Shown one piece after another: positions 16,560 through 24,381 of a DNA stretch of 64,000 nucleotides; position 1 is the first letter of the stretch; each line of letters starts with the position of its first letter. The notes beneath the pieces are model-generated. The model saw nothing but the letters and a program-made list of their open reading frames with translations, made no database searches and was not told the origin of the DNA. Made by a program: the position numbers and the translations under genes. The DNA comes from Deltaproteobacteria bacterium. GTDB lineage: Bacteria; Desulfobacterota; Desulfobaccia; Desulfobaccales; 0-14-0-80-60-11. Location: contig JASEFS010000002.1 of NCBI GenBank assembly GCA_030018495.1, forward strand, positions 1-64,000. Direction: 5' to 3'.

Positions 16560-18920
16560 ATGGCGTCGGAGCGTGACAACTTGTTAACCCAGATGGTGGA
16601 AGTAATCACTTCCACCATCAGCTTTGGGGAACGCCTGAGCAACCTGGTACACCTTTTGGGGCGCTATCTCAAAGTTGATCTGGCATTATATTTCGGGCTT
16701 GATAAGACCAAGGAAATCCTGACTCTGCAAATCAGCAGCAAGGGGGCTATTCCGCCCCACCTGCGCCTCGAATTTCATCGCGGCCAGGGAGTGGTGGGTG
16801 AAGTAGCCCAGACCCGTAAACCCAAAGTGGTTTATCGGCGCCAGGAAGGTGTGCTGGCCCTTAATGCCCCGCTGGAAAAGATTCACCCTGCCTTTAACAC
16901 CTTGGGCGCTTTCCCGGTGGCTGATGATAACTTCCTTTACGGGGTCCTGCTGCTCGTAGATCGAGAAGAACGCTCTTTCTCCAGCCCCGAACGGCACATG
17001 GTGCATTTGGCCTGCCTGATGCTGGCCGGCACGGTGCGCCAAGCCCTGCTGCAGGAAGAAGCCAAAAAGCGCATTGCCGAACTTTCCGTGCTGTTTGAGG
17101 TAGGCAAAGCCTTAAGCTCCACGGTGGAGTTGGATGAACTTCTGGAACGGGTGGTGAGCACCACCGCCAAGGTGATCAACGCCCGGGGCGCGGCCTTGCA
17201 GATTATTGACCGCATAACCGGCGAAATCCGCGTATCCTCCCAGTACGGCCAGATTCCCACCATGCACGCCCCCAATTTGGCTGAAACCCCGCAGCGCTTC
17301 CAAATGGCTGAAGTCCCTTTTCTGGAGGGGCAGACCAGGGACAGCGAAGGCCGGGTGCACTACCATTTGATCGTCCCCCTGACCTTCAAGGGCCAGCTCC
17401 AGGGAACTTTGTGCGTCTTTGACAAGCGCACCCCGAACGGCGATTACCAGGAATTCGACCCTGAGAACCGGCAACTGCTCTTCACCATGGCCGGTCTGAT
17501 CGTCAACGCCCTGGAAAATGCCCTCACCTACCAGCAAGTGGAGACCCTGGCGGAGAGAAATGAAAGAATGGTGCGCAATCTCACCGCGTTGCAGGAAATC
17601 TCCCGGGCCATGCTGACCACGGTTCAGGAGGACCGCTTGCTGGAGATCATCCTCCAGGGGCTGGTCCAGGAGCGGGGCTTGGGCTTCGACCGGGCGGTGG
17701 TCCTGATGGTGGACGAACCCCTCCAGCTTTTGCGGGGGGTGAAAGGAGCCCTGCGGCCTCGCCCTGCCGAGCCCCTGCCTTTATCCGAAGCCCTCTTGCT
17801 GCCGCTGGATAACGAGTTGAATGTATCCGACTGGCAGATTCCGTTGCGGCCCGACTTGGGGGCCCTGCCGCTGGCCGCTCTCCAGATGCGCCCCTATCAT
17901 ATTCACCAGCGGGAGCCGGAAACTCTGGCAACCTTAGACAAGATTTTTGACGCTCAGGAATTTTTCGTCGTACCTCTGGTGGTAAAGGATCGGGTGACCG
18001 GGGTCATCGTGGTGGATAACCAGGCTTCCGCCCGGCCCCTGGAGGCCGAGCCCCTCCACGCCCTGCAAATGCTGGCCACCCAAGCGGCCCTGGTCCTGGA
18101 AAATGCTCACCTTTACACCACCATTGAAGCCAATAACCGTGAATTGATGCTCATCAGGGAGCGCATGCTCGAATCTGACCGCCTGGCCGCTCTCAGCAGC
18201 CTGGCCTCCGGTATGGCCCATGAAATCAGAAATCCCCTGGTGTCCATCGGCGGCTTCGCCCGGCGCATCGCCAAACTGGTGGATAAGGATTCCCCCTTGC
18301 GGGGCTATGTAGAAGTCATCCAAGAGGAAGTTTCCAGACTGGAAAAGCTGCTGCGGGAAATTCTCGACTTCACCGGGGAAAATCTAAGCTATTTCGGGGA
18401 CCATAACCTGGAGGAGCTTATCGAAGACACGCTTCTCCTGGTTCAGCGCGATCTGGAGGCCAGTCATATCAAGGTAGTCAAAGAATTAGGCGAATTGCCC
18501 CGCCTGCATTGTGATGACCGCCAGATCAAGCAGGTCTTTTACAATCTTTTTCAAAATGCCCGGCAGGCCATGCCGAACGGTGGCACCCTTACCATAAAGA
18601 CGTACCCCGTCGAAAAAGAGGACGGCCTTTATGCCGCAGCCGCCATCGCCGATACGGGCGGCGGCATTCCCTTGGAAGTGCTTCACAATATTTTCAACCC
18701 TTTCTTTTCCACCAAGGATTACGGCACCGGTCTGGGCCTTTCAATCGCCCAGCGCATTGTGTCACGCCACTATGGCCAGATTGAAGTGAAAAATGAACTG
18801 GGCAAAGGTGTAACTTTTATTGTTACCCTGCCCGTAGCCAAATACTGTCTGGTGAAAGATGCCGACCGCGGTACGGCCGCGGCCAGTGCCATCAACGTTC
18901 AATCGGGAGGAAGGCGATGA
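16560..18920 (+). CDS. GAF-domain sensor histidine kinase
   Basis: A 786-aa soluble kinase with no transmembrane segment. Three GAF-like modules occupy roughly residues 18-155, 178-325 and 345-525. They are followed by a HisKA domain with the phospho-acceptor H554 (GMAHEIRNPL) and a HATPase domain (N box FYNLFQNARQA, G1 DTGGGIP, G2 GTGLGLS). The signal it senses is unknown; cytoplasmic GAF domains suggest a small ligand or redox cue. Its start is 6 bases after glgA, and its end overlaps the response regulator by 4 bases, so the two are very likely partners. Confidence 0.92.
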   Translation: MASERDNLLTQMVEVITSTISFGERLSNLVHLLGRYLKVDLALYFGLDKTKEILTLQISSKGAIPPHLRLEFHRGQGVVGEVAQTRKPKVVYRRQEGVLALNAPLEKIHPAFNTLGAFPVADDNFLYGVLLLVDREERSFSSPERHMVHLACLMLAGTVRQALLQEEAKKRIAELSVLFEVGKALSSTVELDELLERVVSTTAKVINARGAALQIIDRITGEIRVSSQYGQIPTMHAPNLAETPQRFQMAEVPFLEGQTRDSEGRVHYHLIVPLTFKGQLQGTLCVFDKRTPNGDYQEFDPENRQLLFTMAGLIVNALENALTYQQVETLAERNERMVRNLTALQEISRAMLTTVQEDRLLEIILQGLVQERGLGFDRAVVLMVDEPLQLLRGVKGALRPRPAEPLPLSEALLLPLDNELNVSDWQIPLRPDLGALPLAALQMRPYHIHQREPETLATLDKIFDAQEFFVVPLVVKDRVTGVIVVDNQASARPLEAEPLHALQMLATQAALVLENAHLYTTIEANNRELMLIRERMLESDRLAALSSLASGMAHEIRNPLVSIGGFARRIAKLVDKDSPLRGYVEVIQEEVSRLEKLLREILDFTGENLSYFGDHNLEELIEDTLLLVQRDLEASHIKVVKELGELPRLHCDDRQIKQVFYNLFQNARQAMPNGGTLTIKTYPVEKEDGLYAAAAIADTGGGIPLEVLHNIFNPFFSTKDYGTGLGLSIAQRIVSRHYGQIEVKNELGKGVTFIVTLPVAKYCLVKDADRGTAAASAINVQSGGRR

Positions 18921-19270
18921 AAAAAATTCTTGTGGCTGACGATGAGATGAGTATTCGCCTCCTTTACAGTGAAGAGCTTAAAGAGGAAGGATACGAGGTC
19001 TACCTGGCTTCAAACGGTAAAGAAGCGCTGGAGATCGTGGACAAAATACCCTTGGACCTGGTGATTCTGGACATCAAGATGCCGGAGATGGACGGAATTG
19101 AAGCGTTGCGCCAAATTAAGGAGCGGAAGCCGAATCTGCCCGTTCTCCTGAGTACTGCCTATGGGGAATACAAGCAGGACTTCGCCACCTGGGCCTCAGA
19201 TGAATATCTCGTCAAATCATCCGACCTGGAGGATCTTAGAGCAACGGTAAAGCGGTATTTAAAGGACTAA
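18917..19270 (+). CDS. Single-domain response regulator (CheY-like)
   Basis: A 117-aa receiver domain with the acidic pair D8-D9, phospho-acceptor D52, a conserved Ser/Thr in LLSTAY and the lysine of YLVKSS. It has no output domain, so it acts by protein contact or as a phosphorelay step. The ATGA overlap with the upstream kinase gene points to translational coupling. It is the likely target of that kinase; its downstream partner is not visible. Confidence 0.93.
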   Translation: MKKILVADDEMSIRLLYSEELKEEGYEVYLASNGKEALEIVDKIPLDLVILDIKMPEMDGIEALRQIKERKPNLPVLLSTAYGEYKQDFATWASDEYLVKSSDLEDLRATVKRYLKD

Positions 19271-19284
19271 TGCGGAGGGTTTTT

Positions 19285-19530
19285 ATGGCCAAGGCTAAAG
19301 CCATAGGTTTCGCCCTGATATTTGCCTCATTGGTGCTGTTCGCCTACCAGAATTGGATTTATCCGGCGCCGCCTATTAAATTTTTATTCTATACTTTGCC
19401 CCTTATACCCCATTCTTTACTCATATTCAGCTGTCTGCTCATCGGATTTGTATTCGGCTGGGTGACCCATTTCCTCAAAGCCAGGAGAGCTGAAAGGGGC
19501 ACAGCCTCTAACTTGGGTGATAGGTCTTAA
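19285..19530 (+). CDS. LapA/DUF1049-like small membrane protein
   Basis: About 81 aa with two transmembrane helices (roughly residues 5-22 and 40-62) and a basic cytoplasmic tail (KARRAERG), the plan of LapA-domain proteins involved in envelope and LPS assembly. The ATG at 19285 is preferred because GGAGGG lies six bases upstream; an in-frame ATG at 19270 overlaps the response-regulator stop. It is the last gene of the galT-glgA-kinase series. The family assignment rests on topology and short motifs. Confidence 0.7.
   Translation: MAKAKAIGFALIFASLVLFAYQNWIYPAPPIKFLFYTLPLIPHSLLIFSCLLIGFVFGWVTHFLKARRAERGTASNLGDRS

Positions 19531-20486: not shown

Positions 20487-20487
<1 letters not shown>
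20206..20487 (-). CDS. acyP: Acylphosphatase
   Basis: A 93-aa enzyme that hydrolyses acyl phosphates. The signature GRVQGVFFR contains the phosphate-binding R21, and GWVKN gives the catalytic N39. The ATG at 20487 shares one base with the ligA stop (TGATG), with AAGGAG six bases before it, so translation is coupled to ligA. Confidence 0.94.
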
Positions 20488-22815
<2,328 letters not shown>

Positions 22816-22944
22816 TTAACTAAGACGCCTCAGGATCAAATTTCGCAACCGCTGCTGTCTCTTAGTCCTGATGCCGTTAATGATCAGCAAAGCCAGACCG
22901 GCAACTCCGAAGAAAATCATCAACCACAACGGTTCCACCTTCAT
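22816..22944 (-). CDS. 42-aa single-span membrane peptide
   Basis: A short gene with an excellent ribosome site (GAGGAGG, then AAAA before the ATG at 22942-22944). The product starts MKVEPLWLMIFFGV, has one hydrophobic helix (about residues 6-23) and a strongly basic tail with a possible amphipathic helix (RTKRQQRLRNLILRRLS). The topology would put the tail in the cytoplasm. It lies 51 bases after the small DHp-domain gene on the same strand, so the two are probably one operon. No family is recognised. Confidence 0.65.
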   Translation of the reverse strand: MKVEPLWLMIFFGVAGLALLIINGIRTKRQQRLRNLILRRLS

Positions 22945-22995
22945 TTTTTCCTCCTCGTTGGCACTGAATCAAAGCGATGCCGGTTGGGTCGCTGG

Positions 22996-23262
22996 TTAAT
23001 TACAACGGGGACAAATTAAGTCCCTGTCAGGAAAATCATTTTCGGCTTTCTGCGAGGCTTCCCGGGCTATTTCCCGGATGTGGGCGATAATCTCGAGAAC
23101 CTGCTCGAGCTTATCGCTGATGGTCTGAATCTCTTCATAAAGCGGGTCCTGGGGCTGCTGTTCGATTAACAGCAGGTCTATCAGGCCGGTGACCGTAGCC
23201 AGGGGTTGGGCCAGTTCGTGGAGGGAGCGCCGAATATTCTTGAGAGCGTCGGAATTCTGCAT
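22996..23262 (-). CDS. Stand-alone histidine-kinase dimerisation (DHp-like) protein
   Basis: An 88-aa, all-helical protein. Residues 8-70 look like a HisKA/DHp hairpin with an H-box (SLHELAQPLATVTGLIDLL, His15) and a second long helix, but no ATPase domain follows in this gene or beside it. It ends in CPRCN, a C-x2-C pair that could bind metal. It may be a phosphotransfer or anti-kinase protein that pairs with a separate kinase. The His is followed by Glu and then Pro five residues on, as in true H-boxes. Function is inference. Confidence 0.65.
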   Translation of the reverse strand: MQNSDALKNIRRSLHELAQPLATVTGLIDLLLIEQQPQDPLYEEIQTISDKLEQVLEIIAHIREIAREASQKAENDFPDRDLICPRCN

Positions 23263-23466
23263 ATCTGCACCTGAGCATGGGTTTTATATCGGCTTCGGGC
23301 TCTTAAAGAGCAAAAACCAGGCCAAAGCGGAAAAAATGGAAAAATAGTTATGACAGAAGGCAGGTGGGCGGCAGGGAACTCGAGGGGAGGGCAGGGGGCC
23401 TGTGGTTTCCCGGAGCTCTCCTCGAAACCAGGCTATTTCATGTGATGAATGGAGGATAGGATAATG

Positions 23467-24381
23467 CTAATCTCTCGGCACGGCCAGCATGCGCTCCACC
23501 GCCTTGCGAGCCTTGAGGCGGATGTCATCCGGCAGCGTGATCTGATAGCGATTTTCCTTCAAGGCGAGCACAATATCGTCCAGACTGATGCGTTTCATGT
23601 CCGGACAGAGAAGGTTTCTGGAGGGAGAATAAAAGATCTTTTCCGGATTTTGCTTTTGTAAGGTATGGAGGATGCCCATTTCGGTGCCGATAATGAATTC
23701 CATGGCCGGGGACTGGCGCACGTAAGCCAGCATCCCGCTGGTGCTGCGGATCGCGTCCGCCAGGGCCAGGACTTCGGGACGGCATTCCGGATGCGCCAGA
23801 AACAGCGCCTCCGGGTGCGCGGCCCGGCAGTCCTGGACTTCCCTGGCAGTCAGGGCATCGTGGATATTGCAGCAGCCCTCCCAATAAAGAACTTCCTTAT
23901 CGGTACGGGCGGCGGTGTAAAGGGCCAGGTTGCGGTCCGGCACCATCAAAACCCTGGATTCCGTCAGGGAATTGACAACCTTGACCGCGTTGGCCGAGGT
24001 GCAGCAGATGTCGCTTTCCGCCTTGACCGCGGCGCTGGAATTCACGTAGGTGACCACCGGCACTCCCGGCAGCTGCGCTTTCCGTGCTTTCAGGGCCTCC
24101 GGGGTAATGGTATCGGCCATAAAGCAGCCGGCATCCAGGCGCGGCAGCAGTACGGTTTTGTCAGGGCACAGGATGGCCGCGGTCTCGGCCATGAAATGAA
24201 CCCCGGCGAAGACGATTACTTCCGCCGGGGTCTTGGCCGCGGTGATGGAAAGGGCCAGCGAATCCCCTAAAAAATCAGCAATATCCTGGATTTCCGGGGG
24301 CTGGTAATTGTGGGCCAAAAGGATGGCGTTGCGCCTGGCCAGCCAGTCTCGCACCAGCTGTTGTTGGTCGGTCAAGGTCAT
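23467..24381 (-). CDS. nadA: Quinolinate synthase
   Basis: NadA condenses iminoaspartate with dihydroxyacetone phosphate to quinolinate in NAD synthesis, using a Fe4S4 cluster. The 304-aa protein shows the three cluster cysteines at C86 (DAGCFMAD), C170 or C171 (EGCCNIH) and C259 (NLLCPDMK), with AHNYQPPE near the N-terminus. The ATG at 24381 has no clear Shine-Dalgarno; a 16-bp palindrome lies just upstream. Its partner nadB is 17 kb away in this window, so the two are not in one operon. Confidence 0.96.
   Translation of the reverse strand: MTLTDQQQLVRDWLARRNAILLAHNYQPPEIQDIADFLGDSLALSITAAKTPAEVIVFAGVHFMAETAAILCPDKTVLLPRLDAGCFMADTITPEALKARKAQLPGVPVVTYVNSSAAVKAESDICCTSANAVKVVNSLTESRVLMVPDRNLALYTAARTDKEVLYWEGCCNIHDALTAREVQDCRAAHPEALFLAHPECRPEVLALADAIRSTSGMLAYVRQSPAMEFIIGTEMGILHTLQKQNPEKIFYSPSRNLLCPDMKRISLDDIVLALKENRYQITLPDDIRLKARKAVERMLAVPRD

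Follow-up and report, generated by a model that had tools for sequence, protein, structure and literature searches.

A stand-alone DHp hairpin protein conserved behind nadA across a bacterial order is a candidate minimal phosphotransfer module

The locus raises the question of what a gene could do that encodes only the DHp hairpin of a histidine kinase, and whether the small membrane peptide encoded after it belongs to the same system. The window (the whole stretch of DNA that was analysed, 64,000 nucleotides) contains both open reading frames, as the first-pass annotation had described, and places them on the minus strand, which that annotation had not specified. They are separated by 51 bases:

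22996..23262, minus strand: 88-aa stand-alone DHp (HisKA) hairpin protein, assigned by Pfam match, alignment, dN/dS and predicted structure
22816..22944, minus strand: open reading frame (ORF) for a 42-aa single-span peptide with a strong Shine-Dalgarno sequence, which may or may not be expressed, assigned by ORF and motif

The 88-aa protein has two helices (residues 2-34 and 40-75), with H15 at the phospho-acceptor position followed by Q19-P20. It matches Pfam HisKA (PF00512) with an E value of 9e-6 and 26.1 bits, just below the curated cut-off of 26.9. The Pfam search revealed no HATPase domain in it, and none of the five further families in the output, all with E values of 0.019 or more, is an ATPase; at the DHp loci that were read, the reading frame closes shortly past the hairpin. 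No HPt family is listed either, for this protein (Pfam, E<=1) or for the tandem forms described below (E<=0.05). AlphaFold2 predicts a confident hairpin (pLDDT 85.4). Foldseek returned no match to the hairpin at E <= 0.001 and scored unrelated helical hairpins equally high, the fold search thus being uninformative, and a sequence search of solved structures gave a single spurious match. Regarding other signals, Rfam has no match at 22400-23600, and a promoter/terminator scan found no more signals than in shuffled sequence. The codon score of the gene is 0.20 per codon. The C-terminus, ...LICPRCN, does contain the C-x2-C that the first reading had pointed out; this pair is confined to the window copy among 25 aligned DHp copies and was dropped as a feature of the family.

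Relatives of the protein with 49-61% identity were identified as short frames in 18 of the 21 other genomes of its family, within a search of 59 related genomes. A profile of the 25 DHp copies (A1), which excludes the first copies of the tandem proteins, these having no His, matches 26 of the 29 genomes of the order at 1e-6 or better. In genome G028 the match is only a PAS-DHp protein, so that strong orthologue matches are found in 25 of the 29; the nadA contig of G028 ends inside a tandem DHp gene, and when this gene is counted the orthologues again reach 26 of 29 genomes. The three genomes with no DHp match (G001, G007 and G021) have neither nadA nor ligA, and for this reason the region is probably unassembled in them. 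All 25 members of A1 match HisKA at E<=0.01, and two tandem forms exceed its curated cut-off.

Twelve positions are invariant in the 25 copies of A1: R11, L14, H15, L17, Q19, P20, L21, G26, D29, L30, S49 and L52. The residue after the His (H+1) is acidic (D or E) in 22 of 25 copies, A in two and S in one, and H+4 is Q in all 25, which departs from the HE/DxxN/T phosphatase motif with its N or T at H+4; the copies in this count were picked by an H/Q/P motif, so that H, Q and P are there by construction, A1 itself having been built by homology. In 25 of 27 within-genus pairs dN/dS lies between 0.02 and 0.33 over 59 core codons, dS not being computable in the other two, and by this measure the gene is under purifying selection. 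As judged by comparison across genomes, the 88-aa DHp is an intact, real and conserved stand-alone gene, far above chance. The HisKA match, the missing HATPase and the order-wide orthologue bear out the description of a lone DHp with no ATPase, and the family shows a DHp maintained alone by selection throughout an order.

The gene also has a fixed place. It is found behind nadA, on the same strand, in all 20 loci mapped, and is flanked in the window by:

23467..24381, minus strand: nadA (quinolinate synthase), the gene conserved upstream of the DHp, assigned by synteny
20487..22517, minus strand: ligA (NAD-dependent DNA ligase), lying downstream of the DHp, assigned by synteny

We take these two genes to be nadA and ligA, the former from sequence resemblance. 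Three loci of the second family have a presumably NUDIX-like gene on the opposite strand between nadA and the DHp gene, of which only remnants are found in a fourth. The gene that comes after the DHp gene is ligA in 13 of 16 first-family loci. In these 13 the DHp gene thus sits between a gene for NAD synthesis and one for a ligase that uses NAD, which may be coincidence.

One genus of the order, g11, has a different form of the gene. There it encodes two fused DHp units (DHp-DHp), with 217 aa in G023 and 187 aa in G025, and the start of a third such gene, cut by the contig end, is present in G028. The first copies of these three have N, K and K at the His position, and both second copies that were read retain HELAQPL. 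A tree of 57 rows, built on few columns and including just five true kinases, each of them from the window's genome, places the first copies of G023 and G025 within the nadA-linked clade, which has a branch support of 100/100. For one tandem protein AlphaFold2 predicts four long helices (pLDDT 84.6, pTM 0.72). On this model the tandem form fits a fused four-helix bundle with a single acceptor His, as an HPt-like function predicts; the fit is not proof. Like a monomeric HPt, it would be a one-chain, one-His bundle, but its sequence matches HisKA and no HPt family. Such a natural transition, in which a homodimeric DHp gave way to a single chain with one His, would make the origin of HPt-like relays from kinases testable.

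Conserved catalytic residues, purifying selection, the order-wide orthologue and the one-His tandem form are the reasons why, on balance, we favour the reading of the 88-aa DHp as a minimal module like Spo0B or ChpT, acting as a phosphotransfer node or as a receiver phosphatase; the first of these roles had been among those suggested at the outset, and the comparative data fit it. Dimerisation of two copies would form a four-helix bundle that exposes the phospho-acceptor His15. Having no ATPase, the protein would be unable to phosphorylate itself, and may instead take phosphate from the Asp of receiver domains or strip it off. The Q at H+4, outside the HE/DxxN/T motif, and the A or S at H+1 in three of 25 copies count against this reading.

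There are precedents for such a role. Spo0B keeps an ATPase-like or degenerate ATPase domain, and the isolated DHp of EnvZ is reportedly, alongside that of HK853, an example of a DHp that is a phosphatase on its own. Spo0B and ChpT are described as phosphotransferases whose bundles are DHp-like, with an ATPase-like domain still present in ChpT (PMC3433190), PhyT as receiving phosphate from a single-domain regulator and handing it on to PhyR (PMC5898713), and the isolated DHp of HK853 as having phosphatase activity and binding its regulator (PMC5727384). Spo0B, ChpT and PhyT resemble the 88-aa protein in having a DHp-type hairpin, a phospho-acceptor His and no autokinase; in ChpT and PhyT an ATPase-like or degenerate ATPase domain is retained, whereas all that follows the hairpin in the 88-aa protein is a short tail with no conservation. 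The isolated DHp of HK853 or EnvZ is a laboratory fragment, in contrast to the 88-aa DHp, which is a natural gene.

A different explanation, which we consider unlikely, is a split histidine kinase, in which the lone DHp would receive its phosphate in trans, from an ATPase domain on another protein, before donating it to a regulator. EnvZ can be split with its activity kept, and 1556 of 42417 HisKA proteins in SMART have no HATPase, 711 of them with HE/DxxN/T (PMC3591291). HisKA proteins with no ATPase are therefore already known, and the nadA-linked order-wide family is a variant of these, differing in its orthologue of 80-90 aa throughout an order, its fixed synteny and its Q at H+4. The acidic H+1 residue retained in 22 of 25 copies agrees with a split kinase; its loss in the remaining three does not, nor does the observation that no ATPase gene adjoins the DHp gene in the loci mapped with the window proteins. 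Still less probable is the kinase decoy that the first-pass annotation had proposed, a hairpin that would damp a complete kinase by forming a heterodimer with it. Structures of one kinase in contact with the DHp of another have been solved (RetS with the DHp of GacS, 7n0e, which is in the Foldseek list), but among the kinase DHps of the genome the nearest have only E=0.07 and 30% identity, the catalytic His and Gln are invariant, and the tandem form has two hairpins of its own with one His. These points weaken the idea, to which we still give a small probability. That the protein is a structural or binding hairpin no longer using phosphate is improbable: one paralogue in G025 does have no His, as such a role would allow, yet His, Gln and Pro are invariant in all 25 single or second copies.

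The 42-aa peptide had been read as the second member of a mini-operon and as a possible membrane tether for the DHp. Its ORF encodes one hydrophobic span and a basic tail, and GAGGAGG stands five bases upstream of its ATG. The ribosome site is thus present as described, and GAGGAGG-N4-8-ATG is unique to the peptide within the window. The looser AGGAGG-N4-9-ATG occurs eight times in the window, and five of the seven other occurrences open frames of 57 aa or less. With a codon score of 0.09 per codon, the peptide lies close to the 75th percentile (0.08) for the window's 233 small ORFs. Of the 59 genomes searched, the one containing the window is alone in giving a peptide match better than 0.01, the next (0.0137) lying inside a 418-aa frame of another family. 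At 25 other DHp loci no hydrophobic same-strand ORF of at least about 25 aa is found within 700 bases after the DHp gene, and among 29 genomes the 478-base intergenic stretch matches only itself; the sole other genome of the window's genus has no nadA/ligA/DHp region and is therefore uninformative on the peptide. From these searches the peptide is not shown to exceed a chance ORF and is not part of the DHp system, although it may be a genus-specific gene. As a DHp partner it was rejected, having no relative in the family, at the 25 other DHp loci or in the intergenic DNA, a lack of conservation that the first-pass annotation had itself named as evidence against its idea. A functional pair of DHp and peptide, forming a tethered regulator, is accordingly very improbable despite the strong ribosome site, the short spacing and the span with its basic tail. 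The mini-operon is likewise unsupported, the DHp gene following nadA on the same strand with no peptide gene conserved after it, and we gave up both the conserved pairing and the membrane tether. A decayed kinase fragment, which the missing ATPase might suggest, is refuted by the order-wide orthology, the constant size and place and a dN/dS well under 1.

If the 88-aa DHp acts as a phosphotransfer node or receiver phosphatase, a candidate partner lies in the same window, 4 kb from the DHp gene:

18917..19270, plus strand: 117-aa single-domain receiver (REC), candidate partner, assigned by PF00072 (1.3e-26)
16560..18920, plus strand: intact GAF histidine kinase, its gene immediately preceding that of REC, assigned by Pfam

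Our guess is that this receiver, at 18917-19270, would be the partner and would be charged by the adjacent GAF kinase. Copies with 79-96% identity to REC are present in 23 further genomes of the order; five others hold only copies of 54-57%, and in those five the GAF kinase was found in two and a glgA match in four. Some of these absences may be assembly gaps. The kinase core is retained in all 21 GAF kinase sequences read, and a block that we take to be glgA, kinase and receiver is common to both families. REC and DHp lie on one contig within 20 kb in seven of the 21 genomes having both, including the single-contig G024 (8.3 kb); in the other 14 REC is on a different contig, and the linkage is thus not universal. 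Directly behind the receiver gene, at 19270-19530 on the plus strand, is an 86-aa protein with two spans by eye, kept in several relatives and with a weak match to LapA_dom (1.4e-4, below the cut-off).

A broader proposal, possible but tentative, is a kinase-free relay in which a Spo0B-like DHp would work with the order-wide GAF kinase and the nearby REC. The DHp would be the smallest of a phylum-wide set of ATPase-less DHp sensors that remove or reroute phosphate, its homodimer having been fused in one genus into an HPt-like bundle with one His.

The A1 profile was also searched against 395 genomes drawn from the phylum. Scores above 100 bits are confined to the order (17 genomes), with weak matches of 51.4 bits or less in 11 genomes outside it. 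All 11 weak matches were read, and none continues into an ATPase in frame; their architectures are REC-DHp, PAS-DHp and REC-PAS-DHp, with one short protein and, from a single genus, five proteins ending 85-86 residues past the His. A second profile (A4), made from four weak-match proteins including their tail, matches 122 of the 395 sampled phylum genomes at 1e-12. Among 20 A4 matches picked down the list, the protein ends no more than 102 residues past the match start in 18 and extends in the other two into PAS or REC-GGDEF (domains by eye); none runs into an ATPase. These profile comparisons make the window protein the smallest member of a larger set of ATPase-less DHp proteins, which would be a large class in the phylum that annotation may call kinases. 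Within the largely open-access literature searched, no description was found of a nadA-linked DHp protein or of a tailed ATPase-less class.

Many of the ATPase-less DHp proteins (L074, L075, L077, L085-L109) carry a tail like YxxKxYxGGxxIIDIxxAS. This motif is absent from the nadA-linked family (A1). A second tandem DHp protein, L078 (G025:C63), has N for His in its motif-bearing copy, and not every DHp relative is therefore catalytic; its gene lies upstream of what is presumably a polysaccharide export gene. Genus g11 also contains ATPase-less PAS-DHp proteins, L079 and L080 (G023, G028).
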